DNA of 33,631 nt from a virus, in the IMG/VR virus record IMGVR_UViG_3300006752_000106, positions 1 through 33,631 of that record; one strand, given 5' to 3'. Under the pieces are notes generated by a model. It saw nothing but the letters and a program-made list of their open reading frames with translations. It searched no databases and had not been told where the DNA came from. Within the stretch, counting starts at the first letter, position 1, and every line of letters begins with the position of its first letter. Position numbers and translations under genes: made by a program. Shown one piece after another: positions 3,226 through 33,631 of the stretch.

Positions 3226-5124
3226 ATGACTAAGGTCGTAGCTATGGACATAGAAACAGACGACCTAGATGCTACCTGTATTTGGTGCATCTGCACTGAG
3301 GATGTTAAGACAGGTGAGCAGCATCAATTCACCTACGTTGACAAGTCAGAAGCTGAGAAGCAAAGGTTCACCGACTACTGTGCAACTGTTGATCGTTTCG
3401 TATTCCACAACGGCATTCAGTTTGATGTACCTGTAGTCAACAAACTACTTGGTCCTGTCATACCTGAGGCTAAGGTGCTAGACACTTTAGTAGTCAGTAG
3501 GTTCTTGAACTACGACAACGAACCAGTCAAAGGCGTCAAAGGTAGGCACAGCTTGGAGTACTGGGGTAGGCGGCTAGGCTTACACAAAGGTAACTTCAAA
3601 GACTTCTCAGACCTAAGCCACGAGATGTTAGACTACTGTAGGAATGACGTAGACATAACTGTTAGGCTCTACAAGAGGTTCCTACCTGAGTTGAATGCTC
3701 CAGGCTTAGACACAGAACACAGTATCCAAAGGCTGTGTCAGAAGATGCACGAGAATGGTTTCGACTTCAACAAAGAAGAAGCCTTAGTGTGTCTATCTGA
3801 AGTTCAATCTCGTATGGCTAACCTTGAAGCTAGGTTTCAAGTAGACTTCCCACCTAAATTGGAGGTAGTCAACGAACTAAAAGATAGGAGAAAGAAAGAT
3901 GGTACGCCTGTCGCTTCTGTGCTTAAGGCTAGAGGTAGCTATCCTAAGACTGAGACTAAGGATGAGAAGCTGCTTTGTTACGATTGGGTCAAGTTTAAAC
4001 CGGGCAGTCCGAAAGACAGAATAGAACGTCTTTGGGAAGCTGGCTGGAAACCTACCGAAAAAACTAAAGGACACATCCTCTACCTTAGAGATGGACAAGA
4101 CATACCTGAGAAGGAAGAAAGGTTCAGAGTGTATGGTTGGATGTGTAACGAAACTAACTTAGCTACCCTACCAAGTACTGCTCCTGAGGGGGCTAAGGGA
4201 CTGGCTGAGTGGCTAACCCTAGAAGGACGCAGGTCTTCCCTAGAGGAGTGGATAGGCTGCGAAGCTAGAACTAATGACGGTAGGATACACGGTAGGTTCC
4301 AACATATAGGTGCATGGACTGGCCGTATGGCTCACTCATCCCCCAATCAAGCCAACATCCCGGCTATGTTCCACGGTGAACCTAAGTCAGTTGTTGACCA
4401 AGTGAAGGACAAATATGATGGGAGATTACGATCTCTTTTTATGGTTCCTAGCGATTGTTATCTTGTTGGAACTGATGCTGAAGGCATCCAACTCAGGGTA
4501 CTCGCTCATCTTATGAACTCAGAGGAGTATGTTGAGGCTATCGTATCAGGTAAGAAGGAGGACGAAACTGACATACATAATGTAAACCGCAAAGCCTTAG
4601 ACATGAGCCACATAACTAGGGACATGGCTAAGACATTCATCTACGCTTTCCTCCTTGGAGCAGGCGTAGCTAAGATAGCTGAGATACTTAAGGTTAACAC
4701 CAAAGAAGCTGGTCAGGCTGTTGAGAACTTCACTCAGTCTATCTCAGGCTTAGCTAAACTTAAGAATGAGATTGTTCCTGAGGCAGCAGCTAAAGGACAC
4801 TTCATTGGACTAGACGGAAGGAAAGTTAAAACACCATCTCAGCATAAGACTCTAGCTGGTATGCTACAGAATGGTGAAGCAGTTGTGATGAAACACTCAG
4901 CACTGCTTTGGACTAAGCAGCTAGATGAAAGAGGCATAGACTACAAGTTAGTGACATGGCCTCACGATGAATGGCAAACGGAGGTCAGAGGTGACAGACA
5001 AACAGCCGAAACAGTTGGACTTATTCAGAGACTTTCGATTGAAACAACGGGAGATAAACTCAAAGTCTTCTGCCCTCTCGCAGGAAGCAGCGATATCGGA
5101 AGAAACTGGGGAGAAACACACTGA
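3226..5124 (+). CDS. Family A DNA polymerase with 3'-5' exonuclease (T7 gp5-like)
   Basis: Replicative polymerase, 632 aa from ATG 3226. That start is preferred over an in-frame TTG at 3211 because GAGGA (3213-3217) lies 8 nt before it and follows the helicase stop closely. The proofreading domain shows Exo I MDIET (D8, E10), Exo II HNGIQFD and Exo III YCRNDVD. The polymerase domain shows motif A DAEGIQLR (D417), motif B RDMAKTFIY (K469, Y473) and motif C HDE (580-582). Y473 sits where T7 has Y526 (E. coli Pol I F762); Tyr here is usual in lytic T7-like phages. It is somewhat shorter than T7 gp5 (704 aa). The short overlapping ORF at its 3' end in another frame looks like a shadow. Confidence 0.95.
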   Translation: MTKVVAMDIETDDLDATCIWCICTEDVKTGEQHQFTYVDKSEAEKQRFTDYCATVDRFVFHNGIQFDVPVVNKLLGPVIPEAKVLDTLVVSRFLNYDNEPVKGVKGRHSLEYWGRRLGLHKGNFKDFSDLSHEMLDYCRNDVDITVRLYKRFLPELNAPGLDTEHSIQRLCQKMHENGFDFNKEEALVCLSEVQSRMANLEARFQVDFPPKLEVVNELKDRRKKDGTPVASVLKARGSYPKTETKDEKLLCYDWVKFKPGSPKDRIERLWEAGWKPTEKTKGHILYLRDGQDIPEKEERFRVYGWMCNETNLATLPSTAPEGAKGLAEWLTLEGRRSSLEEWIGCEARTNDGRIHGRFQHIGAWTGRMAHSSPNQANIPAMFHGEPKSVVDQVKDKYDGRLRSLFMVPSDCYLVGTDAEGIQLRVLAHLMNSEEYVEAIVSGKKEDETDIHNVNRKALDMSHITRDMAKTFIYAFLLGAGVAKIAEILKVNTKEAGQAVENFTQSISGLAKLKNEIVPEAAAKGHFIGLDGRKVKTPSQHKTLAGMLQNGEAVVMKHSALLWTKQLDERGIDYKLVTWPHDEWQTEVRGDRQTAETVGLIQRLSIETTGDKLKVFCPLAGSSDIGRNWGETH

Positions 5125-7735: not shown

Positions 7736-8371
7736 ATGGCTCATGCTAACCCTGAGGATACAAAAGCCTACAACAAAGCCTACTATGAAAAGAACAAGGA
7801 GGAGCTTAGAGCCAAGAACAAAGCCTACAGAGAAAAGATCAAGGAGAGGCTTAAAACCTACAGCAAAGCCTACTATGAAAAGAACAAGGAGGAGCTTAAC
7901 GCCAAGAACAAAGCCTACCGAGAGAAGAATAAGGAGAGGCTTAAAGCCTACAGAGAAAAGAATAAGGAGAAGATCAGAGCCTACACTAAAAAGTACAAGG
8001 AGAAGCATTATGCCAATCAATTAAAAAGATTGTATGGCATAGGGTTACATGAGTACAACCTTATGCTTACTGAGCAAAAGGGTAAGTGTGCTTGCTGCGG
8101 CATTCACCAAAATGAGTTAACTAGAAATTTTGCTGTTGACCACGATCACGATACTGGGTTAATAAGAGGTTTGCTTTGTGGTAACTGCAACACAGCTATC
8201 GGAAAATTAGGTGACAACATTGAAGGTCTTATGAGGGCTTTAAACTATCTTGAGAAACATGAACTAACAAAGGAAAGAAAAACAAATGAGCATGTCGTAC
8301 AAGTCAAACCTAAACCCAATGTTCAGGTCAAAGTTCAGCGAGGACATCTTCAATCACAAGTACCGACATGA
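7736..8371 (+). CDS. Endonuclease VII-type HNH nuclease with long charged repeat arm
   Basis: The C-terminal half (about 100-165) has the endonuclease VII/HNH signature: zinc pairs CACC (C118, C121) and CGNC (C148, C151) around VDHDHDTGLIRGLLC (135-148). The N-terminal 95 residues are two near-identical 30-aa repeats (14-43, 44-73) and part of a third, all Lys/Glu-rich and probably a long helix. Such free-standing HNH genes often behave as homing endonucleases beside conserved phage genes. This one abuts and overlaps the RNR gene by 86 nt, so its last 29 or so codons also encode the RNR start region. A resolving or packaging role is possible but less likely, as endonuclease I is already present. 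Confidence 0.8.
   Translation: MAHANPEDTKAYNKAYYEKNKEELRAKNKAYREKIKERLKTYSKAYYEKNKEELNAKNKAYREKNKERLKAYREKNKEKIRAYTKKYKEKHYANQLKRLYGIGLHEYNLMLTEQKGKCACCGIHQNELTRNFAVDHDHDTGLIRGLLCGNCNTAIGKLGDNIEGLMRALNYLEKHELTKERKTNEHVVQVKPKPNVQVKVQRGHLQSQVPT
7775..7954 (+). repeat. 90-bp tandem repeat inside the HNH gene
   Basis: Two adjacent 90-bp units (7775-7864 and 7865-7954) are nearly identical and in frame, each encoding a 30-aa block beginning KAYYEKNKEEL. A degenerate partial third unit follows (KAYREKNKEKI and onwards). The high identity at DNA level points to a recent duplication, and copy number may vary between relatives. Confidence 0.8.
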
Positions 8372-11466: not shown

Positions 11467-11485
11467 AGGCTACCTAAAAAAGAAA

Positions 11486-11517
11486 AAGGGGAGGACCAAT
11501 CCAATGGCTCTCCCCTT
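11486..11517. terminator. Bidirectional intrinsic terminator between converging arms
   Basis: AAGGGGAG (11486-11493) pairs perfectly with CTCCCCTT (11510-11517), and CCA/TGG inside can extend the stem. On the + strand AGTTTTAT follows. On the - strand the preceding A-rich run (ACCTAAAAAAGAAAA region) becomes a T-rich run. It lies 20 nt after thyX and 9 nt before the end of the last leftward gene, so it can stop both transcripts. Confidence 0.85.
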
Positions 11518-11525
11518 AGTTTTAT

Positions 11526-11624
11526 CTACTTCATTTTCTTCTTAGGCTTTTTCTTCTTTTCTTCTTTCTTCTTCTTGGTAGCGTTCTTGTAGGGCATTGG
11601 ACCCTTACCTTTGGAGTACGGCAT
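11526..11624 (-). CDS. 32-aa lysine-rich peptide (basic cassette, gene 5)
   Basis: MPYSKGKGPMPYKNAT is followed by an almost unbroken Lys tail; 15 of 32 residues are Lys and only 2 are acidic. It starts 2 nt after the stop of the 74-aa basic gene and AAAGGAAAT lies before the ATG. It is the last gene of the late operon, just before the terminator. A net charge this high suggests binding to DNA, RNA or membranes. No catalytic role is plausible at this size. Confidence 0.6.
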   Translation of the reverse strand: MPYSKGKGPMPYKNATKKKKEEKKKKPKKKMK

Positions 11625-11626
11625 AG

Positions 11627-11851
11627 TTATTTCCTTTTCTTTCCACTTGCTGTTGTTGACCACTTAACCTTCTTAGGTCCGGTCTTCTTAGCTGCTTCCT
11701 TCTTTGTAATTTTAGAAGCAACACTCTTAGGTCTACATGCTGGGTAAGGTCTTTTGGATTTACCTTTAGCTGACTTCCTACCGCATGGCTTACCTGTCTT
11801 TACGTCAGTCCACTGTTCAGAGAACCACTTACCTAAACCTCCTTTCGCCAT
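11627..11851 (-). CDS. 74-aa basic protein (basic cassette, gene 4)
   Basis: The product has 20 Lys and 4 Arg against 3 acidic residues. A conserved-looking N-terminal block, GGLGKWFSEQWTDVKTGKPCGR, and YPACRPK contain two cysteines that might bind metal; a KKxGPKKVKWST tail follows. I recall similar short proteins (the TDVKTGKPCGR block) in other marine phages as an uncharacterised DUF, but cannot verify this. It starts on TAATG coupling with the 56-aa gene (shared T at 11851). Function unknown; nucleic-acid binding is the obvious guess. Confidence 0.75.
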   Translation of the reverse strand: MAKGGLGKWFSEQWTDVKTGKPCGRKSAKGKSKRPYPACRPKSVASKITKKEAAKKTGPKKVKWSTTASGKKRK

Positions 11852-12021
11852 TACTTCTTAGCTTTCTTTTTCGATGCCGCACTCAGGTCTTTAAAGTGGT
11901 ACAAACGCTTACTAGTTTTACCGTGTGTCTTACCTGAATGAACTTGGCCATTTGGCATCTTGTGAGTATTGCCTTTATACTCTGTGCCATCTCTTAAATA
12001 ATGTTTAACACCCTTAGCCAT
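11851..12021 (-). CDS. 56-aa basic protein (basic cassette, gene 3)
   Basis: Begins ATG 12021 (MAKGVKHYLRDG) and ends in KKKAKK, with 13 Lys, 2 Arg and 3 acidic residues. The central GTEYKGNTHKMPNGQVHSGKT is rich in Gly, His and Thr and looks like a small conserved domain, with five His in the protein. Both ends use TAATG junctions (12021 and 11851), so it is translationally coupled to its neighbours. I know similar short phage proteins but no function. Confidence 0.75.
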   Translation of the reverse strand: MAKGVKHYLRDGTEYKGNTHKMPNGQVHSGKTHGKTSKRLYHFKDLSAASKKKAKK

Positions 12022-12200
12022 TATCTTTTACCTTTCTTAGAGACTTTATTGTTACCACCTTTCCAGCCTCCGCCTTTACCTTTGTACCACTTAGCAGCCC
12101 AAGCATTAGCATACGCTGAAGGGTAGACTTTAAACTTCTTCTTAGCCGCAGCCTTAGCCTTAGACCAAAGAGATGGATTAGTTGGAGTTGCTTTAGCCAT
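12021..12200 (-). CDS. 59-aa basic protein with no acidic residue (DUF5872-like; basic cassette, gene 2)
   Basis: The 59 residues include 15 Lys and 1 Arg and no Asp or Glu. The block KKKFKVYPSAYANAWAAKWYKGKGGGW is a recognisable phage pattern (YPSAYANAWA...KWYK), which I associate tentatively with DUF5872. Aromatic residues between lysines fit nucleic-acid stacking. I choose ATG 12200 (TAATG with the upstream stop) over GTG 12206. Tail NNKVSKKGKR. Function unknown. Confidence 0.78.
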   Translation of the reverse strand: MAKATPTNPSLWSKAKAAAKKKFKVYPSAYANAWAAKWYKGKGGGWKGGNNKVSKKGKR

Positions 12201-12469
12201 TACCACTTCACCTTATTAGCCCAGTACGCAGCAGACATCTTACCCTTCTTGATATTCTTAGCGTGTCTAGCTTTGAAGGACTTCTTTCTAGCCTTGTCCT
12301 TAGCTGACTTAGGGCTTTTACCTGCACCTGATACACCTTGTTGACCAAACCTAATGATCTTTTCTTTGCCGTTAGCACAAGCCTTAACCACATGAGACTT
12401 AGTAGCATGACCTGAGGTACGCTTAGGTTTGTTACACTTCATTTTAGATTTTTCTATTTGCTTAGCCAT
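12200..12469 (-). CDS. 89-aa basic protein (basic cassette, gene 1)
   Basis: First and longest member of the cassette: 23 Lys and 4 Arg, with 3 acidic residues. KCNKPKRTSGHATKSHVVKACANGKEKIIRFGQQGVSG is split by two cysteines (11 and 31) and three histidines; then KKSFKARHAKNIKKGKMSAAYWANKVKW. The SFKARH..NI..G..SAAYWANK end is familiar from other marine phage genomes as an uncharacterised protein. GAGGT precedes ATG 12469, 5 nt after the end of the holin-like gene. It probably binds nucleic acid; it may be packaged in the virion or act late on host DNA. Confidence 0.78.
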   Translation of the reverse strand: MAKQIEKSKMKCNKPKRTSGHATKSHVVKACANGKEKIIRFGQQGVSGAGKSPKSAKDKARKKSFKARHAKNIKKGKMSAAYWANKVKW

Positions 12470-12474
12470 AGTCT

Positions 12475-12918
12475 TTACCTCGCGTTCTTAACCATAGATG
12501 CACCAAAGTACATACCTATGATAGCCCCAAGTAGGTGGGTATCTAAGGGTGTGATGACCAACCCAGTTAGTGCCTGCCATGTAGTCTCCTCAGTCCCCTC
12601 AGTAAGGAACAAGAAGCCTGGATTCCATTCAGTGTACCCTACTGTGACAGGTATCTCAGGCCAGAAGACAGCTACAATCTTAGGCCAGACTATGATAGCA
12701 GCTACAGATGCAAGAGCTATGATCCTACGAGTAACTTGGAACCCCTTGTTCTCGTACCTCCTAGCTAGGTCTGTAGCTTCTGACTGTGCAGATAGTCCTT
12801 CGATGGCCCTGTTGAATGCCTCTTGTTTGGACTTAGCTGCTTGGCCCCAGAGTGTCATAACTCCTGACAACAACCCTGAGCCTAGCATTGTGATTAGTTC
12901 TAATGGTAATCCACCCAT
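12475..12918 (-). CDS. Membrane protein, holin candidate, 147 aa
   Basis: Three hydrophobic stretches can be seen: about 5-23 (LELITMLGSGLLSGVMTLW), 66-86 (IIALASVAAIIVWPKIVAVFW) and 119-143 (LVITPLDTHLLGAIIGMYF). A charged, helical segment (QAAKSKQEAFNRAIEGL) lies between the first two. Size, segments and a site beside the virion lysin fit a holin that permeabilises the inner membrane for lysis. Similar proteins (IIVWPK, VGYTEW, TPLDTHLLG) occur in marine podoviruses. No experiment I know proves the role. AAGGAG precedes the ATG. Confidence 0.7.
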   Translation of the reverse strand: MGGLPLELITMLGSGLLSGVMTLWGQAAKSKQEAFNRAIEGLSAQSEATDLARRYENKGFQVTRRIIALASVAAIIVWPKIVAVFWPEIPVTVGYTEWNPGFLFLTEGTEETTWQALTGLVITPLDTHLLGAIIGMYFGASMVKNAR

Positions 12919-12928
12919 GGTCTACTCC

Positions 12929-15900
12929 TTACCTAGTACGAGGATTGAATATACTGTCACTAACTCTGTGGTAAAGGTTAGTAAAAGACAGACCAGCAAC
13001 TTCAGATATATCTTTCTGAACTGCTTTTAAAGCCTCTGGACTAATGTCTTCCATACCTTTGATTCTTCTTATTGACTGAAGTCTTCCGCTTGGGTATCTT
13101 GTTACATTGACTTGATCGTCTTGATTTCCACCAAGAATAGCTATACCGTTACTAGTAGAATCAACAAAGAAACCTACATGGTTGATACCATTTCGAGGGT
13201 TTTCAATAATAACTAGATCGCCAGGTTTTGCCTCCTTTAACTCTACTCCTTTACCGATGTTTTTATACTGCTTAGCCCTAAGAACATCATACCTGTCTCT
13301 ACCTCCGGGTTGATTGCCATCAGGAGCGTTAAAACCTAAGTTAGTTAGCACATGAGCAACAAAGGCAGCACACCAAGCATTCTTGTCTTTTGTTACTTCA
13401 CTGAAGGGGTCAATTCTTCCCTTAAAAAATTGATTGGTAAGACCAGCAATAGCTTTTTGATGCTCAGGGTTGTTTTCATCTAAGCCTACTAAGCCTCCTA
13501 CTTTGTATATAAATTCAATGGGGTTTCTGCTAGAAAACTCAATAGCTTTATCGACTTTTTCTTTATACTCAGTCGCTTCAGCAGGTGATCCGGCAACAAA
13601 ATTACCTACAGCGCTACCTAAACTTCTTAGCCAATTTACGGAAGGCACTGAAGACTCTACCAAAGAAAGTGTTTCTTTATTTAAGCCTTGGTTTGACTTG
13701 TTTCTTTCTTCAAGCCTAGCCTGAGCATCAGCAATCCTTTGCTCTGAAGGTGTCAACTGATTTGCTTCAGCCATACCTTGCTCTGTAGGTCTACGAGGAA
13801 TAACACCACTTTGCATAAGTTTCTCAGCTACTGACTGAGCCTCTTCGTCTGACCCTAGGTTTAAGGCAGACCTAATTGAAGATATAGCACCACCTAGCAT
13901 GTTGCCTTGAGTAACCTTAGCTCCTGCTTCAGGACGTAAGAACGGACGACCCTGTGAGTCTAGGCCAGGACCAGAGGAAGGTTCAACTACCGTTTCAGTC
14001 CCTTCTTTAAACCCTTCATGTTTTTGAATAGCGTCTAACATAGTAACCCTTTGGTCATCGTTAAGGTCACTAAGTTTTGTACTATCAGAAACCCCTAAAG
14101 CATCTGTAATTCTTTTAATGTAAAGAGCTGTGTCGTTCTCTTTAGGAGGAGCGTACCTAGTAATAGCTTCAGAGATTGTTTTACCTCTGTAGTTTTTACC
14201 TTCGAACAGAAGAGATCGCATGGCCTCCCTTCCTTCTTCGTAGGTCTTAAACACAGCATACCTTCCGTCATCACCGACAGCACCTTTAGACGTTGCAAAG
14301 TCTCCTGCTTCTAAGTTACCTGGGTTGTTATTTCTCCAGCTACGAAGACCTTCACGTTTGACTACAGTTCCGTCAGCCTTAGTCACAGTAGTAAACCCAT
14401 CCCCACCTTCATTAACTGAGGATATACCTGAAGTAGCTCCAGCAGGTTGTACTATAGCAGGAGGAGGTGCTTGATCCATAGTCTGTCCTTGGTTCGTAGG
14501 CGCAGTACCAGCCACTGTTGCAGCAACTCTTCTAGCTTCTGCTGCTGGATCACTAAATTCTTGAGCAAGAGGAGGTAACTCACCACCAGCGTTTAAAGAA
14601 AGGTAGAACTGTCGAAGGGCTGCTGTAGCTCTCCTGTTTCTTTGGGCATCCTCAATTCTTATAAGGTTTCCGTTAGACACTACCTTACTTGCGTCCCCTG
14701 GACCTTGGCTAGGGCTTCTTGCTGTGGTAAACCTAACAAAATTATTCTCAGCACCTTTAGCTAAGTCACCTCCGTATGCGTATTCAACACCTACCTGAAA
14801 AGACTTCATATCCTCAGGGGTCTGACTGTTAATAAACTCAGGAGTTAACTCGTACTTACCTGTCTCTGGGTTAAACTTAGCTGTGGAAATACCATCTGCT
14901 GTTGCGTCACCTACTAAACTCTTTTCTATAGAACTAAGCTGCACCTTCCTTCTGCCAAGTTCAGTAGTCAAACCTACACTTAGGGAGGCTCTAAGTAACG
15001 CTGCTTGCTCTGGGTCCACCTTATCTAGGGAATCTAGGTTTTTAAAGATATTCCTATTTAAGAGTTTACCTAAGTCATCAATCGTTCGTAGTCTATTTTG
15101 CTGAGGTGCAGTAAGTCCTTGAGCTACACTGTATATAGAAGTAGCAAAAGCCGTTACATCTTCTTGGGAGTTAAAGCTATAGCCGGGAAAAGATGCTTTC
15201 TTGGCGTTACCTTTAGTATAACTTACTAACTGATCCGGGGTCATCTTCTTAATTGCATCTGAAAGCTCAGGAGGTACAATCGTTTCAGGAGGCGGAATAC
15301 TCCCTGGAGGTGCTTTTGCTATAGCACTAGCAGTTACACTGTTTAAATTACCCAGTTCAAAATTACTTAGTGGACGTTTACCTAAGGATGTGTTACCTTT
15401 TACCAAGGCATTCATATCGTTAATACCCATAAACTTCATCAACAGAAATGGGTCTTTAGCTGAAAGCAAAGTAAAGTTTAAGAACATATTCTTTTTATCG
15501 TCTTCAGACATATCAGGATTTTGTGCAATTTGCTGCAACAGTAACTGACCCTGTTCTCCTGCATCTAGTAATTGCACTATAGTTTCGATAGAACCTTTTA
15601 GATTATTTCTAGTAGCGACCTCTTGCGTCCTAACTTCAGGACTAACACCTGAAGGAATCTGCATTTTAGGTGTAGCTAGTAACGCTTGATAGTTAGATAG
15701 TACTATTCTGGCGTCTTGTTCTGTAGCTTTTCCTGTGTTAACCAGTGCGGTTAGTCGGCTATAGGCAGTATCCCTAAAATGTTGAATAATATCTTGTTGG
15801 ATTTGTTGTCCACCCTTAGGTGCCATGTATTCTACTGCATTTTCTGTATCAGTTCGTTTTAAATCTTCAGATAGTCTAATAGAAGTTTGTTGCTCATTGA

Positions 15901-16417
15901 AGGCTTGATCGAAGGCTTCCTCTTGGTCCATACCACCAGCAATCAAAGGAGCAGCGGCAGCTTGTATTTCTGGAGTTTGAATTTGGGCTGCTTTAAACTT
16001 TGCTACTGGGTCAACACCAAAATATGTATCAGAAGGTAGACCTGTTGTCTGCTCAAAATAGGTTAACATATCTTCATCTATTGGCTGACCTGCTGAACCA
16101 AAGTTTTGGACAATTCTGTTCATGTCCATTTTAAAACGGCCTTCTCCAAACTGCTCTTTATTTCGGAGAGCTATCTGAACCTCTTCTGAGAAACGAGCCA
16201 AGTTAGGGTCAGGTCTACCGCTTCTAGTTCCTCCGTATCTATTCCTATACCTTTGGTCCTGAGCGTACAGAGCCACACCCTGACTAGCTAGGTTAAAACC
16301 AGCAGTAACTGCATCAGCCGCTGAGGTTCTAACAGGAGCTACAGGGCTTTCTACCGCACTTCCACCTGCTGCTGTTAAACCTAAGCCTGTACCTGTTTTA
16401 TAGAAAGGGCCGGTCAT
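12929..16417 (-). CDS. Internal virion/ejection protein with two peptidoglycan hydrolase domains, 1162 aa
   Basis: The N-terminal 650 residues are Ala/Gln-rich and helical, like ejected core proteins of T7-like phages. At about 685-810 lies a lysozyme/transglycosylase-like domain: RSWRNNNPGNLE, then YAVFKTYEEGREAMRSLL, and YAPPKENDT. At about 1005-1115 lies a CHAP/NlpC-like amidase domain of the TIGR02594 type: AWCAAFVAHVL with Cys at about 1018, PGDLVIIE, and INHVGFF with His at about 1080, then ILGGNQDDQVNVTRYP. It could open the cell wall during DNA injection. No separate endolysin is visible, so it may also serve lysis. It starts on TAATG with the 1524-aa gene. Confidence 0.85.
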   Translation of the reverse strand: MTGPFYKTGTGLGLTAAGGSAVESPVAPVRTSAADAVTAGFNLASQGVALYAQDQRYRNRYGGTRSGRPDPNLARFSEEVQIALRNKEQFGEGRFKMDMNRIVQNFGSAGQPIDEDMLTYFEQTTGLPSDTYFGVDPVAKFKAAQIQTPEIQAAAAPLIAGGMDQEEAFDQAFNEQQTSIRLSEDLKRTDTENAVEYMAPKGGQQIQQDIIQHFRDTAYSRLTALVNTGKATEQDARIVLSNYQALLATPKMQIPSGVSPEVRTQEVATRNNLKGSIETIVQLLDAGEQGQLLLQQIAQNPDMSEDDKKNMFLNFTLLSAKDPFLLMKFMGINDMNALVKGNTSLGKRPLSNFELGNLNSVTASAIAKAPPGSIPPPETIVPPELSDAIKKMTPDQLVSYTKGNAKKASFPGYSFNSQEDVTAFATSIYSVAQGLTAPQQNRLRTIDDLGKLLNRNIFKNLDSLDKVDPEQAALLRASLSVGLTTELGRRKVQLSSIEKSLVGDATADGISTAKFNPETGKYELTPEFINSQTPEDMKSFQVGVEYAYGGDLAKGAENNFVRFTTARSPSQGPGDASKVVSNGNLIRIEDAQRNRRATAALRQFYLSLNAGGELPPLAQEFSDPAAEARRVAATVAGTAPTNQGQTMDQAPPPAIVQPAGATSGISSVNEGGDGFTTVTKADGTVVKREGLRSWRNNNPGNLEAGDFATSKGAVGDDGRYAVFKTYEEGREAMRSLLFEGKNYRGKTISEAITRYAPPKENDTALYIKRITDALGVSDSTKLSDLNDDQRVTMLDAIQKHEGFKEGTETVVEPSSGPGLDSQGRPFLRPEAGAKVTQGNMLGGAISSIRSALNLGSDEEAQSVAEKLMQSGVIPRRPTEQGMAEANQLTPSEQRIADAQARLEERNKSNQGLNKETLSLVESSVPSVNWLRSLGSAVGNFVAGSPAEATEYKEKVDKAIEFSSRNPIEFIYKVGGLVGLDENNPEHQKAIAGLTNQFFKGRIDPFSEVTKDKNAWCAAFVAHVLTNLGFNAPDGNQPGGRDRYDVLRAKQYKNIGKGVELKEAKPGDLVIIENPRNGINHVGFFVDSTSNGIAILGGNQDDQVNVTRYPSGRLQSIRRIKGMEDISPEALKAVQKDISEVAGLSFTNLYHRVSDSIFNPRTR

Positions 16418-19400
16418 TAGTTATTCTCCTCAGGGTTCTTAGTAAGTTTTCTGAACGATCTGGTAGCGTAAGTATTGTCAGAGTTTTTAAACAAATGAAT
16501 ATACATTTTCTGATAGTCTTTCTGGAATGGTGATAAAGCTGATCTCCTAAGACTAACCATCTCCTTGAAACTAAAACCTGACGTAGCAATTTTAGCACTT
16601 ATTTCGCTAATCATTTTTCTTCCTCTTTCTTCGTCACCTTCTGAGATATAACGAAGGGCTGTGTCAGCTTCTTGACTAATTTGTTTTCTAAACTTATTAA
16701 AAGATTTTTTGTCGTTGTAGATCTGACCTTTTCTTTGATAAATTTCTTGAACAGATCCAGGCGTAAAACCAGCAAGAGCCATTAGGGCCTGACCTATGCT
16801 CATTTCATCCCCTACAGAAACACCACTCTTACTGCGGTACATACCGTTATTGATAATACCTAGAAATTTAGCTGGGTTGTTAAGACCTGATGGTTGACGA
16901 ATTACTTTAATTAAATCCTCAGTCATTAAAGCTGTTCTGCCGTGAGCTAGGTCAGCAAGAGCATCAAAGACAGCGCCACCAATATTAGTTACAATCTCAC
17001 CAGACGGACCACCTATTGCTCCAATAGTTTCTTCTTCGAATATCTTTTCATAAGTATCTAAGAAAGCACCTATAGGGGCCAATCTTGTACCTAAACCTAC
17101 CCAACCGTCCTGCCCTCCTAAGGCGTGGGAGATACCATCAAAGAACCCATACTTAAGACCAACGTACTTTGATCCTCCGGGTTCAAAACCTAGTTTCTCA
17201 CCTACATAGTCAGCAGCATTACCAGCACCAAAACCAGTTAAACCGTACATTGGTCCCAACATAAGGAATAACCTAGCTCTTTCCATTTTAGTTAGACCCC
17301 TACCTACAAAAACTGCTTCCATAGACCTAAAGCTGTAGGAAAGCCACTGAGTAGGAACCTTCATAAGACTAGATTGAACCATAGCTCTGTCTGCTGTAGT
17401 CATGTTAAACGTAAGGGTTTGTTCTCTGCTGGTTATGAACTGCCTACCAAAGTCAGACGAAGCAGATATGTTAGGGTATTTAGCTTTAAACTCTAGGAAG
17501 GCTGTATTAATAGCTGTAAGACGAGACAAACGCTCACCTGCATTAAAAGGATAAAGACCTACGTCTAAACCTTTAGATACCGCATCTGTAACTCTTTGTG
17601 CTTTAGCTGAAAAGGAGTTGTACTTATTGCTGTTACCTCTCCATCCTGAGATATTCCAAGAAATACCTGTACCAGCTTCAATAGCATCACCTGCAACTAT
17701 GTGCCTACCTGAAGTTCTAATGTACTCTAGCAGTTCTTCAGCAGTTTCTTCTGTAAGACTGTGGTGTTTAGCTAGTCTTTTAACACCTTCTTTGTAAGCC
17801 TCAGGAGTTTTAGCTGCACCTAATAGACCCCTTTGAGCAAAGACCATAGCTGCTGCATTAAGACCATGTTTAGGGGATATAGCCATGATTGATGTGGCGT
17901 GTAACCCTTGCATAACAAACTGAGAAATGGCCATAAGACCAAAAGAACTTTGGAAGCCAATTCTAAGGAGTGTGTTTGTAGGGTCATTAGCTAGGAAATT
18001 AAGTTTCTTTCCTTTGCCTATACCAAAGGGTATCTTACCATCAAAGATATACTCAGCGGTTTTAGTACCAAGTTGCTCCATAAACCTAGATGGCTCATCC
18101 TGCATGTTTAGCCTACGAAGAGTAATGTTTCTAAGCTCTCTCATACGGACAGCGAACTCATCTGTACCAGTTACTTCAGCGTTTCTAAAGAGAGTTTCGT
18201 AGTCAGACTCACTTACACCACCAGCCTTCTTAAACCATTCTGACCTTTTGACTCCATCTTTAGGTAAAGCAGCTTTAACCCAACCAACCATAGCATTTTG
18301 TGTGTAAGCCTTGTTTGTGTAGGTAAATACTGAGTTACCAAACTGAGCAAAAGTAGAAGACACAGGATCAATGTTATAGGTTTTACCTCCACCAAAGTCC
18401 ATAAGAACTTTGTCTTGTCTTCTCATGTCATTTTGAATGTAGTCTTCTGCTGAAGTATTAGCCCAAAGGTCTGCGTTATCTAAGTCACCTCCTACTATCT
18501 CACCATTTCTAGCCCGGTAAGCTACGTCACCTTCAATCTGGTCGCCTCTATTTTTTACCCACCCTTGTTCGTAGGCTAATTCATCAAACTGTACCTTAGA
18601 CTGAATGTCAGGGTTCCAGTCGTTGTTATTTTTAATTATATCGTCTATGTCAGAAGAACCCTCGTTGATTGCTTTTACAACAACCCTCATTTGATCCTTA
18701 GCTACTTTAGCATCTGCTTCAGAAAAGGTTGACAAAAGGGCTTTAACTCTTTTACCCTGCCCTCCGATTACTAAGAAGTATTTAGCGTTAGGGTTTATTC
18801 TTCTACCACCTGGGTTGTACCCCATAACATCAGTAGGGTCGATAAGACGAGCATTAGTAGGATTAACCACAAAGCTCTGTCCTGTAGGTAGTGCTTGATC
18901 TAATTTCCAAACTGGAATGTCGTCAGCTAAATCTCCAAAAACAATTTCATCACTAGGTCTGCCATAGACTCTTCCTTCGACATCAAGAACAATGTCTGAG
19001 TCCTTCAGTTCAGCTTTTGTAATTCTCTTAGCTGGAGTGAACACACCTGGGGCAACCTCAACAGCCCTATTGTATCCTTTGGATAGGAACCTTTGAAGGA
19101 CATTAGTCGTTTCAATTAAATAGGCAGTCTCTTCGACGGTAGCTAGATCGTGATAAGCATCTAATTCTTTTTGAGTAGCTTCAGCACCGTCAGGGTGTAG
19201 CTTTCTGTACTCATCAAAAAACTCCTCATCAGTGTACCTTGTGCGTACATGAGCATGTTCCCCATCTCTTAGCTTTGCATACACAGCGTTAAGAGTAAAC
19301 TTACCTTTAGAGTCGAGAGCCTTAATTGATTTTTCGTAAGGTCTAACAATGTCCCTAACAACGGCTCTACCACCTTGACCTAATTGAGCCAAAGTAGTTA

Positions 19401-20991
19401 GAAATCTGTTGTCTCTAAGTGCAGCACCAGCCATAACTCTATTGTTAAAGAGTTTACCTACAGTTCTTCTGGCTAGGTCGTTCTTTAAGTTTAGCTCTAC
19501 GCCAAGTTTATCTTGAAGACCTAAGGTGCTTACACGCTCTGTTACTTCAATGACATAACCTTTAGAGGCGTCAGCGGGGTCTAGTTGAACAACCTTAGCT
19601 GTAGGCCCAAGTTTCTCAGCCGCACGTTTAACAGAGGGTGGTACTTTATACTCAATTTTAGAGGCACCTTCTTTACCTGTACCTGTACCTGTCGTCTCCC
19701 CATAGGTTGATAGCTCATCTTTAGCTTTAACTGTTGTTCCGTCTGCTAGTTTAGCTACAGTACGTTCACCTTCTTTTACAGCTTTAGTCTGTATAGGAAG
19801 ATAAGCATCACCTGTTTTAGCTTTACCTAGTCGTACAGAAACAAGCCAGTTACCTAAGCCTTCATTGATTATCCTAGCGTCACTTCTAATTACATTGGTT
19901 GTGTTATCACGGATATCTTGAATAATTTTACCTGCTGCTTCTGCAATTTTTTCTTTAGTTACAGAACGTCCAAAGGCACCCTTACGATCTAACTGGTCAA
20001 TCTCTTTAGCAAGAGCAGTCTCAGTTAATTTTTGTGCAAAACTAGAATTGTTAGCTCTAACAGGTTCAGAACCACTTAAATCTTGTGTAGCATCACCTCT
20101 GCCAACAACTGTTTCGGGGTCTGGTCCTTTTTCAAGGATTGTTTCAGCAGCTTCTTCTCCAGCTTTTTCCCCTTTAAGCGTTGTTACCCTACCGACTGTA
20201 GTCTTTGAACCAATAATAGAAGTTAATTGAAGACCTTTACCAGCTACTTTAACACCGGCTGCTACAGTACTAATGGCAGGTAAGTCTATAAGAGAAAAAG
20301 CTTTTTTAAAACCTGAGTTTGGGTCAAAACCTAAATTACCTACTTCTTCCTTAAGGGCTTCAAGCGCACTAATACTGCCACTTCTAAAGACCCCTTCTTC
20401 TTTTCTTTCCTCTAGGTAGCCCTTAAACCAAGGTAAAAAGTCTTTTGGATCACCTAAACTTCTTGACATGATCTCAGTAGTAGACCTAGTGTCTCTCTCA
20501 GTAAACGCTTCAATAGGGTTAACTACCGCCCTAACAAGTTCTCTGTCTAGGAAATTAAGCATATTCCCTACGGTGCTGTTTTCTTCTTCTGCTTCTGTAA
20601 TTGCAGCTTCGACTTCTTCCAATGCCCTTTGAATGTTAACAGCTAAATTTGATTCAGCAGAGCTAACAGCAGGGTTATTAACTAAAGCAGCTTGTTCTAA
20701 AACAACGTCAGGGTTTTCTTCAAAGGCTCTTTGCTTTTCACTTAGTTCTATGGCTTTAGCTTGAACTTCATCTAGGGTTAGTCTATCTGCTTCAGCAGAG
20801 CTTAGTACTTCTCTGAGAGCATCCTGAGAGTAAGGAGCTAAACTAGCCTTAGCTTCTTCAGAAGTTTCTAAAGGCTCCCCCGTAGCAACAAGAATGTCCA
20901 TTGATCTTTCAGGCGTTAAAGGAATAGGCTCTGAACTAGTCGCGCCTATTTCTTCAAAGACCATTTCTTCTTCATTACCAATCTCAGGCAT
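16417..20991 (-). CDS. Giant internal virion (ejection) protein, T7 gp16-like by position, 1524 aa
   Basis: The largest gene in the window. The N-terminal third is acidic and helical (EEVEAAITEAEEEN and similar). Around 1010-1040 (FGLMAISQFVMQGLHATSIMAI) and 1235-1265 (RLFLMLGPMYGLTGFGAGNAAD) are hydrophobic stretches that could insert in the membrane or line an ejection channel. Length and place between the gp14-like gene and the other core protein match T7 gp16 (1318 aa), but I see no lysozyme motif here; that activity appears to sit in the downstream protein instead. Assignment is by order, size and composition. Confidence 0.8.
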   Translation of the reverse strand: MPEIGNEEEMVFEEIGATSSEPIPLTPERSMDILVATGEPLETSEEAKASLAPYSQDALREVLSSAEADRLTLDEVQAKAIELSEKQRAFEENPDVVLEQAALVNNPAVSSAESNLAVNIQRALEEVEAAITEAEEENSTVGNMLNFLDRELVRAVVNPIEAFTERDTRSTTEIMSRSLGDPKDFLPWFKGYLEERKEEGVFRSGSISALEALKEEVGNLGFDPNSGFKKAFSLIDLPAISTVAAGVKVAGKGLQLTSIIGSKTTVGRVTTLKGEKAGEEAAETILEKGPDPETVVGRGDATQDLSGSEPVRANNSSFAQKLTETALAKEIDQLDRKGAFGRSVTKEKIAEAAGKIIQDIRDNTTNVIRSDARIINEGLGNWLVSVRLGKAKTGDAYLPIQTKAVKEGERTVAKLADGTTVKAKDELSTYGETTGTGTGKEGASKIEYKVPPSVKRAAEKLGPTAKVVQLDPADASKGYVIEVTERVSTLGLQDKLGVELNLKNDLARRTVGKLFNNRVMAGAALRDNRFLTTLAQLGQGGRAVVRDIVRPYEKSIKALDSKGKFTLNAVYAKLRDGEHAHVRTRYTDEEFFDEYRKLHPDGAEATQKELDAYHDLATVEETAYLIETTNVLQRFLSKGYNRAVEVAPGVFTPAKRITKAELKDSDIVLDVEGRVYGRPSDEIVFGDLADDIPVWKLDQALPTGQSFVVNPTNARLIDPTDVMGYNPGGRRINPNAKYFLVIGGQGKRVKALLSTFSEADAKVAKDQMRVVVKAINEGSSDIDDIIKNNNDWNPDIQSKVQFDELAYEQGWVKNRGDQIEGDVAYRARNGEIVGGDLDNADLWANTSAEDYIQNDMRRQDKVLMDFGGGKTYNIDPVSSTFAQFGNSVFTYTNKAYTQNAMVGWVKAALPKDGVKRSEWFKKAGGVSESDYETLFRNAEVTGTDEFAVRMRELRNITLRRLNMQDEPSRFMEQLGTKTAEYIFDGKIPFGIGKGKKLNFLANDPTNTLLRIGFQSSFGLMAISQFVMQGLHATSIMAISPKHGLNAAAMVFAQRGLLGAAKTPEAYKEGVKRLAKHHSLTEETAEELLEYIRTSGRHIVAGDAIEAGTGISWNISGWRGNSNKYNSFSAKAQRVTDAVSKGLDVGLYPFNAGERLSRLTAINTAFLEFKAKYPNISASSDFGRQFITSREQTLTFNMTTADRAMVQSSLMKVPTQWLSYSFRSMEAVFVGRGLTKMERARLFLMLGPMYGLTGFGAGNAADYVGEKLGFEPGGSKYVGLKYGFFDGISHALGGQDGWVGLGTRLAPIGAFLDTYEKIFEEETIGAIGGPSGEIVTNIGGAVFDALADLAHGRTALMTEDLIKVIRQPSGLNNPAKFLGIINNGMYRSKSGVSVGDEMSIGQALMALAGFTPGSVQEIYQRKGQIYNDKKSFNKFRKQISQEADTALRYISEGDEERGRKMISEISAKIATSGFSFKEMVSLRRSALSPFQKDYQKMYIHLFKNSDNTYATRSFRKLTKNPEENN

Positions 20992-32237: not shown

Positions 32238-32462
32238 TTAGCCGCCTCCTGCTGTGATAGCATCAGTAATCGGCGTCATATCTTCAGTAGTCCAAAAGTC
32301 CCAAGTAACTACGATCTTAAGGTGTCCTACGTTTCTTTCTAAGATTGTTTCGTCGTCTGCGTAATCATCCGGTGAGGCTACAACAGCGTTAATTAAGTTT
32401 ACTGAGTCCATTGCTGCAGAGTAGTGTTGAGCAATTTGCTCAGATGTTAGTTCGTCTGACAT
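32238..32462 (-). CDS. Small acidic protein after the tail fibre, 74 aa
   Basis: Acidic 74-residue protein with LERNVGHLKIVVTWDFWTTEDMTPITDAI, a pattern I recall from small genes beside tail-fibre genes of marine phages and cyanophages. The first part is helical (EQIAQHYSAAMDSVNLINAVV). AAGGTAA precedes the ATG, which overlaps the fibre gene end by 16 nt. It may help fibre folding or attachment, by neighbourhood only. Confidence 0.7.
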   Translation of the reverse strand: MSDELTSEQIAQHYSAAMDSVNLINAVVASPDDYADDETILERNVGHLKIVVTWDFWTTEDMTPITDAITAGGG

Positions 32463-33631
32463 TTGCAGTTACCTTTTAGAGTTTGGATTTCGGAGGATAG
32501 TTCTTGAATTGCTTTGACCAACACAGGGATTAGTTTTCCTGGGGTCGCCTCAAGTTTGTCAGGGTTAGTTTTTAGAACTAGATTCATTAAGTCTTCAACG
32601 CCAGCATCTTGTTGTGCTTCGTCTAGTTCCTGTGCAATAAATCCAGCCTCTTTTTGACCTACCTTTGCACCATCACGCATGTCCCAAGTAAACTCGACAG
32701 GGTTCAGTGCGTTAATAAAGTCAAGTCCAATTGGCAGTTCTTTGATGTCTTTTTTGTCTCTGCGATCTGACAGAGAAGATATGCTGGTAACTTGGCACCG
32801 CAGTGAGGTAATAGATGAATTGCCTAAAGTAATTTCGTTAGAAACTGTTGCAGAACTAGCTGTCGCTCCTCTGCCCAAGCACGTTACGTTAGATGCTGTC
32901 GTCGTTGTGCTGCCAGCCTGATGGCCGAGAAATGTATTATAAGTTCCTGTCGTTACTGACCCGCCCGCGTTGTAACCGAGATGAGTCGCAGCCGTACCTT
33001 CAGTGTGGTTGCCCCCACCATTATTCCCACTAATAATAACAGCTTCTGACGAACCCGACCCGCTTTGGTTGCACAAATTATGACCGAGGATAATTGATTT
33101 ATCGCAGTCTCCGTATTGTCCAACCTCCGTCCCAACAAGAACGCAATCGCTCGAGCCGGTGTTTATGTTAACCGAGGCACCAGCATTCTTGCCAATCATA
33201 ATAGCACGATGGAGAGTGCCGTATTGTTTGCTTCCTGCATTCGGGCCAATGGCAACTGAATTTGTGCCACTGGTCATTAAATTTAGAGCATTTTCCCCGA
33301 TTGCTATGTTGTCTTTGTAAGAGTCATCTAAATTTTCAAGGGCGTTAGCGCCTAAACCAATCGATCTTTTGTTTGAATACCCATCAGACAGACCATTGAT
33401 GTCCGTAGCACCTCCGCCACCAGCAGCTTCCCATCCGGCCTCACCATTAGCATCTACTGTCAGAACGTAATTGTCTGTGGCAGTGCTGTCCTTAATAATA
33501 AAGTTAAGACCCGGTACTCTAAATTTAGTAGTAGATGTATTACCTAATGTAATTTCGTTAGATACTGTGGCAGAACTAGCTGTCGCAGCATTTCCCAAAA
33601 TTATATTGTTGCTGCCTGTGGTCGTTGTGTA
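32447..33631 (-). CDS. Tail fibre/spike with YadA-like repeats and S74 self-cleaving chaperone (N-terminus off window)
   Basis: Host-recognition fibre; 394 residues are visible and the frame stays open to the window edge, so no start is present here. The body is made of beta-helix/trimer repeats (AIGENAL, VAIGPNAG, IMIGKNAG, FLGHQAG), like trimeric adhesin heads. The C-terminal about 110 residues form a peptidase S74 intramolecular chaperone: LSDRRDKKDI with the Ser and a Lys five residues later matching the known cleavage dyad, FIAQEL, and PGKLIPVLVKAIQEL forming the end helix. The chaperone should trimerise the fibre and cut itself off. Parts of the body are G+C-richer (50-55% in two sampled stretches) than neighbouring genes. 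Confidence 0.9.
   Translation of the reverse strand, partial: YTTTTGSNNIILGNAATASSATVSNEITLGNTSTTKFRVPGLNFIIKDSTATDNYVLTVDANGEAGWEAAGGGGATDINGLSDGYSNKRSIGLGANALENLDDSYKDNIAIGENALNLMTSGTNSVAIGPNAGSKQYGTLHRAIMIGKNAGASVNINTGSSDCVLVGTEVGQYGDCDKSIILGHNLCNQSGSGSSEAVIISGNNGGGNHTEGTAATHLGYNAGGSVTTGTYNTFLGHQAGSTTTTASNVTCLGRGATASSATVSNEITLGNSSITSLRCQVTSISSLSDRRDKKDIKELPIGLDFINALNPVEFTWDMRDGAKVGQKEAGFIAQELDEAQQDAGVEDLMNLVLKTNPDKLEATPGKLIPVLVKAIQELSSEIQTLKGNCKCQTN
32812..32910 (-). repeat. Fibre internal repeat, copy next to the chaperone
   Basis: This 99-nt stretch matches 33532-33630 closely at an exact in-frame distance of 720 nt (240 codons). Both copies encode ATASSATVSNEITLGN followed by S/T-rich residues. 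Shared runs include GTAATTTCGTTAGA and GCAGAACTAGCTGTCGC. Confidence 0.75.
33532..33630 (-). repeat. Fibre internal repeat, copy at the window edge
   Basis: Partner of the copy at 32812-32910, same strand and frame, 240 codons upstream in the fibre. It encodes IILGNAATASSATVSNEI and continues to the window edge, so the repeat may extend further. Confidence 0.75.

Follow-up and report, generated by a model that had tools for sequence, protein, structure and literature searches.

What is a set of five very small and very basic proteins doing at the far end of a phage late operon? The question is raised by an IMG/VR virus contig of 33,631 bp, possibly incomplete, that we analyzed over its whole length and refer to as the window. 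Its source is a cobavirus-like podovirus: two arms converge, the late arm ends at a cassette of five genes that we call g1 to g5, and the record also carries internal virion proteins, a phrog_267 major head protein, a T7-type replication module, and a GNAT gene (Pfam, 4.1e-6). In published cobaviruses, too, the arms converge, a terminator lies at the center, and the internal virion proteins have a GNAT gene beside them (PMC6775973). Judging from sequence comparisons, the cassette probably encodes small, basic, DNA-associated proteins of the head interior that act like the internal proteins IPI-III of T4.

The cassette comes after the internal virion protein genes (Table 1). A preliminary description of this DNA had placed it at the end of the late operon, which is borne out by a hairpin and T run just past g5, as expected at the end of a late transcript facing thyX. 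On RNA folding, the hairpin is strong (-20.3 kcal/mol, z -2.1); a strict scan for consensus-type terminators did not report it. The 1162-aa protein matches PHROGs families of the head-and-packaging and tail classes. The 147-aa protein matches phrog_38283 (E 3.5e-12) and no Pfam family, is 51% identical to CRP-7 gp70, which is itself encoded near the CRP-7 cassette, and is holin-like by inspection only. Farther away in the window, positions 7736-8371 encode the most basic window gene product outside the cassette, an endonuclease-VII-like protein of 211 aa with YEKNKEELRAKNKAYREK-type repeats running through its N-terminal half, and positions 32447-33598 encode a tail-fibre-type protein with a Peptidase_S74 self-cleaving chaperone at its end (1.9e-13).

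Table 1. The cassette and adjoining features of the late arm, in window coordinates.
Feature	Position	Strand	Description
g1	12200..12469	-	89 aa, net +24; phrog_7595, beta-beta-alpha-alpha domain
g2	12021..12200	-	59 aa, net +16; N-terminal half of DUF5872
g3	11851..12021	-	56 aa, net +12; KHYxxDGTExKG..HSGKTHGKTSK family, accessory member
g4	11627..11851	-	74 aa, net +21; C-terminal half of DUF5872, two invariant Cys
g5	11526..11624	-	32 aa, net +13; Lys-rich, probably real, lineage-specific
Hairpin + T run	11474..11518	-	between g5 and convergent thyX; late-transcript end
147-aa protein	12475..12918	-	hydrophobic, probably membrane protein; directly upstream of g1
1162-aa protein	12929..16417	-	internal virion protein candidate in the cassette operon; transglycosylase and lysozyme-type regions
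1524-aa protein	16417..20991	-	internal virion protein in the cassette operon; phrog_12003 internal virion protein, E 5.1e-28

All five adjacent minus-strand ORFs were found at the positions and lengths first described, and the counts of lysines (23, 15, 13, 20, and 15 from g1 to g5) and of acidic residues (3, 0, 3, 3, and 2) agree exactly, as do the junctions, three of which are TAATG and the last, between g4 and g5, a gap of 2 nt. Predicted pI values range from 10.3 to 10.8, and together the five proteins contain 86 K and 11 R. Among the 40 likely genes of the window they rank as the top five in net charge per residue (0.21-0.41, with the next at 0.095); the chance that the five most basic genes would be contiguous is P ~5e-5. 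Homologues of g1, g2, and g4 that are 48-83% identical occur in unrelated phages, and the family alignments keep invariant Cys, Trp, Tyr, Pro, and Arg columns, conservation beyond what composition alone would preserve; these ORFs are therefore real genes and not artefacts of composition. We extend this to the rest of the cassette, the status of g5 being weaker since homologues are known only from two near relatives, in one of which (L010) it is identical and in the other (L011) has a Lys tail four residues longer, in frame. The five are, as had been claimed, not simple duplicates, and the suggestion that they belong to uncharacterised families in marine phages is upheld for g1, g2, and g4; g3 and g5 have no significant family match.

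g1 is a full-length member of phrog_7595, with residues 3-89 aligning to positions 8-96 of the 96-position profile (E 2.6e-34), and has homologues of 49-72% identity in 49 phage records at E ≤ 1e-3. AlphaFold models it as two strands and two helices (pLDDT 82.7, pTM 0.68). A structure search of viral models with g1 returned phage and giant-virus proteins, several of them with the fold inside larger head-type proteins. Against solved structures, the best Z from VIA-align was 2.5, a value that rules nothing out. We do not claim g1 as a member of DUF6321 or DUF5754, for which E values of 0.04-0.06 fall under the cut-offs. g1 also weakly matches ribosomal protein L18 (E 0.084), which could be read as a link of these small proteins to RNA or the ribosome, just as the probable membrane protein directly upstream and a lysozyme gene beside g1 in CRP-810 could be read as a link to lysis. 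We consider either role very improbable, as the L18 profile search is non-significant (E 0.72), searches of solved structures with g1 and g4 gave no significant match, and most genes next to the cassette in other phages are for the head or packaging. Also in CRP-810 (L005), a 52-aa Lys-rich protein (GLYANIHAKRKRIANGSGEKMRKPG...) encoded directly after g1 at 4252-4410 is annotated as a ribonucleotide reductase A subunit, which is probably a misannotation; the protein looks like another small cassette family.

g2 and g4 match successive parts of a single family, DUF5872 (PF19197). g2 aligns to profile positions 1-49 (24.2 bits) and g4 to positions 53-111 (24.6 bits), both below the curated cut-off of 27.5, which longer ORFs in three other loci (L214, L234, and L245) exceed. 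g2 additionally matches phrog_27331; a tblastn search with it against phages returned nothing at 1e-2, probably owing to low-complexity filtering, and HMMs were therefore used instead. In g4 the invariant columns are C23, C39, W9, and W14, and its AlphaFold model is poor (mean pLDDT 66). None of the cassette proteins matched NCBIfam. g3 is conserved, with the pattern given in Table 1, in at least 27 loci among the best 80 of at least 600 matches per scan, and a stretch in CRP-902 is 63% identical to it. Public annotations overlook g4 in two phages: in CRP-207 (L001 3501-3716) a 99-nt ORF, gp69, is called there instead, and in CRP-902 (L250, about 3798-3989) nothing is called.

Profile scans of viral contigs with g1, g2, and g4, each comprising the best 80 of at least 600 matches, yielded 238 loci. 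We counted linkage with HMMs run over all ORFs, with 1.5 kb included on both sides of g4-seeded loci. Among these best-80 matches, g2 lies within 700 bp of g4 in 53 of 53 g4-seeded loci, g4 within 1.5 kb of g2 in 49 of 54 g2-seeded loci (within 700 bp in 43), g1 within 1.5 kb in 36 of the 53 g4-seeded loci, and g3 near g4 in 8 of the 53, and of 79 loci seeded with g1, 65 have it without g2 or g4. The loci counted also served to build the HMMs, many records are fragments, and the counts are not independent because the phages share ancestry. By these co-occurrence counts, the core is an obligate g2-g4 pair, often with g1, to which g3 and g5 are accessory. The five genes are thus not one indivisible system. 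The preliminary description had raised the prospect of homologues that are scattered and never neighbours; instead, g2 and g4 always adjoin, and g1 joins them in the majority of g4 loci.

Gene order recurs in phages of differing organisation: it is g1-g2-g4 in CRP-2 and C72C1 and g1-g2-g4-g3 in CRP-207. In CRP-902 it is g2-g4-g3, then g1. P-SSP7, checked as a possible proteomics anchor, has none of g1-g5. Portal, terminase, major head, structural, and scaffold genes are among the neighbour clusters of the cassettes, nearly all on the same strand. Other small ORFs nearby resemble parts of the T4-like polyproteins described below: with g1, g2, and g4 themselves excluded, 47 of 2442 small ORFs no more than 1 kb from a cassette match these polyproteins, compared with 0 of 3320 more than 2.5 kb away. 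CRP-7 (L004 2940-3586) has a cassette with different members, namely the DUF6321-like gp65, a CYKKV bead (gp64), and g4 (gp63), parts of which recur as beads in SSM1_115 of S-SM1 or in L190.

The key tie to the head comes from phages related to T4. At least 25 ORFs, among the best 80 of at least 600 matches per scan, contain g2 and g4 in one reading frame, and most are long and have further domains. Three polyproteins (L183, L187, and L220) string together g4, g2, and g1. SBM3_00185 of cyanophage S-BM3 consists of g4, g2, and two further beads and adjoins gp16, upstream of gp17; SSM1_115 is its counterpart in S-SM1. The polyprotein family is T4-GC119, labelled "hypothetical" in both phage records, and the literature covered contains no report of it in virions. 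In T4, cleavage by the prohead protease gp21 follows L/I-x-E (PMC9026906). This motif is found in the 16 residues upstream of g2 beads in 91% of cases, compared with 15% for randomly chosen positions and 31% after shuffling of those residues, and across all beads in 58% compared with 12%, bead counts that, like those of targeting peptides below, are not statistically independent given the shared ancestry of the phages.

Separate genes in T4-like loci show the other T4 signature. In the T4 record, IPII and IPIII start with MKTYQEFIAE. A 57-aa g2 in L216 starts with MLRFKDFIVE followed by K, and a 92-aa g1 in L208 with MKTFAQFLEE followed by K, both peptides of the T4 capsid-targeting type. The pattern occurs in 21 of 1977 ORFs in loci classed as T4-like and in 5 of 7033 elsewhere; polyprotein-type records are mostly fragments, and only a gp23 or S77 match identifies one directly as T4-like. 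L216 is such a case, with g2 and its targeting peptide followed by g4, basic ORFs, an S77 prohead protease (gp21), a T4-type scaffold (gp22), and gp23. S77 is present in all three polyprotein-type records longer than 100 kb and in none of the 22 single-gene-type records: a PF03420 search matched neither the window record, possibly incomplete, nor the 21 others, and the T4 positive control scored. The window sequences of g1-g5 have neither an N-terminal targeting peptide nor an L/I-x-E site.

The S-SM1 cytidylyltransferase T4-GC190, which starts with the targeting-like MKKFSAFLNE and holds no cassette bead, was detected in virions (PMC3037559), and it supports a head-interior location of the cassette domains only indirectly. 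Ahead of g1 in L208 (2672-9306) is an island of genes with T4-type targeting peptides, one of them nucleotidyltransferase-like with a PPTSGHE motif, which hints that the proteins delivered into the head form a larger set. In five other records, g4 lies inside long ORFs of about 840-2100 aa: L214 7290-11438, L234 3895-7980, L245 5454-7982, L247 1623-7979, and one in L242. All except L214 have a separate g2 ORF alongside, and by eye the L214 protein also has g1-like and cell-wall-lytic stretches. Neither gp23 nor phrog_267 was matched in these five records.

The g1 domain is also fused directly to head proteins. ORF125 of ICP1, encoded beside the scaffold gene gp124, is an S78_2 prohead protease (6.6e-10) that carries a g1 domain at its C terminus (phrog_7595, 5.8e-11; our own HMM, 3.5e-14). 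The 1393-aa portal gp012 of cyanophage CL131 also contains a g1 domain (1.2e-14), and this portal is among the proteins detected by LC-MS/MS in purified virions (PMC6293099). The g1 domain in fusions is less basic, at 0.17 compared with 0.22 net charge per residue, and the partner of the fold may therefore be a head protein and not DNA. g1 also forms the N-terminal part of a 1053-aa ORF in L145 (2586-5756), which has a PcfJ-like region, and of an 809-aa ORF in L147 (4636-7092).

The ICP1 and CL131 fusions, and the portal, terminase, major head, or scaffold genes that cassettes often adjoin, could also be expected of packaging or assembly accessories, for example a scaffold adaptor or terminase helper, that work in the prohead or at the portal and are gone before maturation; the lower charge of fused g1, as of a fold that may bind head protein, would suit such a role as well. 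We think it improbable, since the T4-like beads, with predicted cutting sites between them, would come out as intact basic domains, as do the internal proteins of the mature head (PMC9026906). Late-operon position and high positive charge would also fit DNA-binding proteins that stay in the producing cell, outside the virion, and either cover the replicated phage DNA or turn off the host's DNA or transcription. Such proteins are an unlikely explanation: the targeting peptides, cutting sites, and head-operon position of the T4-like homologues would be left unaccounted for, as would the g1 domain in a prohead protease and a portal.

We therefore favour a location in the head interior on the strength of the targeting peptides, the gp21-type sites, the T4-like head operon, the protease fusion, and the virion-detected portal. 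The case is best for g1, g2, and g4. It is weaker for g3, which co-occurrence only connects to it and which was never found in T4-like polyproteins, and weakest for g5, which is connected by adjacency and two near relatives only; neither has a T4-like head-protein tie. The first interpretation of the locus thus stands in part: packaging in the head or escorting of DNA is now the favoured role, and a protamine-like nature is not well supported, because g1 is folded and because Cys, Trp, and Tyr residues are invariant in both g1 and g4, more than charge alone would require. The cobavirus paper (PMC6775973) has no virion proteomics passage on the cassette genes.

On the head-interior reading, the cassette proteins would be late products that enter the prohead or join the packaged DNA, and we infer that they are present in the virion of the window phage. 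In T4-like phages the same domains would reach the prohead by one of two routes, a capsid-targeting peptide at the N terminus or a bead-string polyprotein in which L/I-x-E precedes the beads; the window phage would make them as separate proteins at final size, without targeting peptide or protease. Inside the head they may bind DNA and neutralise or organise it near the portal, and at infection they would probably leave with it, so that ejection into the host, and a role there, is plausible. That g1-g5 have no targeting peptide or L/I-x-E site to account for entry into the head counts against this reading, as do the many g1 genes that stand alone, the merely "hypothetical" label of T4-GC119, and the missing T4-like tie of g3 and g5.

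A wider scenario is possible, though we hold it to be doubtful. Podoviruses, T4-like myoviruses, and siphoviruses, and possibly algal and amoebal giant viruses too, may trade head-interior domains from a shared toolkit of g1, split DUF5872, DUF6321, and a few other beads. Small phages would encode these as separate, naturally pre-cut genes and T4-like phages as a protease-cut polyprotein, and the products would pass into the next host along with the DNA and be active inside it, with nucleases as one conceivable target. More immediately, phrog_7595, split DUF5872, and DUF6321, abundant marine phage families with no known function, gain one concrete and testable role. Our findings suggest that basic head-interior proteins of the kind worked out in T4 occur widely among small phages with no T4 protease route, and that the same contents are delivered in two modes, from a polyprotein or from separate genes. 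If ejected, these proteins would form a large unexplored pool reaching marine bacteria at the first moment of infection.

Comparison with known systems helps to place the cassette. Protamine- and histone-like condensing proteins are mostly Arg-rich, disordered, and composition-driven; g1-g5 are Lys-rich, with a confidently folded g1 and invariant Cys, Trp, and Tyr columns. With T7-type internal virion proteins (ejectosome) the common point is position, the cassette following the internal virion protein genes of the window; the small proteins share no sequence with them. phrog_7595, to which g1 belongs over its full length and which forms the C-terminal domain of ICP1 ORF125, had been a family with no assigned function and is now linked to the head interior. 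DUF6321 (PF19846) is a frequent neighbour gene and polyprotein bead in such cassettes; it is absent from the window, and its similarity to g1 is sub-threshold (E 0.055). DUF5872, also listed in the algal virus CpV-BQ1 (PMC12085832), is here divided over two neighbouring genes, separated in the window by g3, and each half alone scores below the cut-off.

The closest parallel is with T4. Its internal proteins are small and basic, present in ~300 copies, bind DNA at low salt, are ejected, and are poorly conserved between relatives (PMC9026906), traits that match the variable, swappable cassettes described here. Like IPI-III, the cassette comprises several genes for small basic proteins in a set that varies between related phages; an N-terminal peptide of the IP type and the L/I-x-E site recur on g1 and g2 homologues from T4-like phages, and g2-g4 lies in a T4-like head operon. 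Unlike IPI-III, the window genes carry no targeting peptide or site, the record has no S77 match, and no homology was found between the mature domains and IPI-III. Because targeting peptide, cutting site, and S77 protease were not found, the window proteins are not members of the T4 internal proteins; we propose that they work like them.
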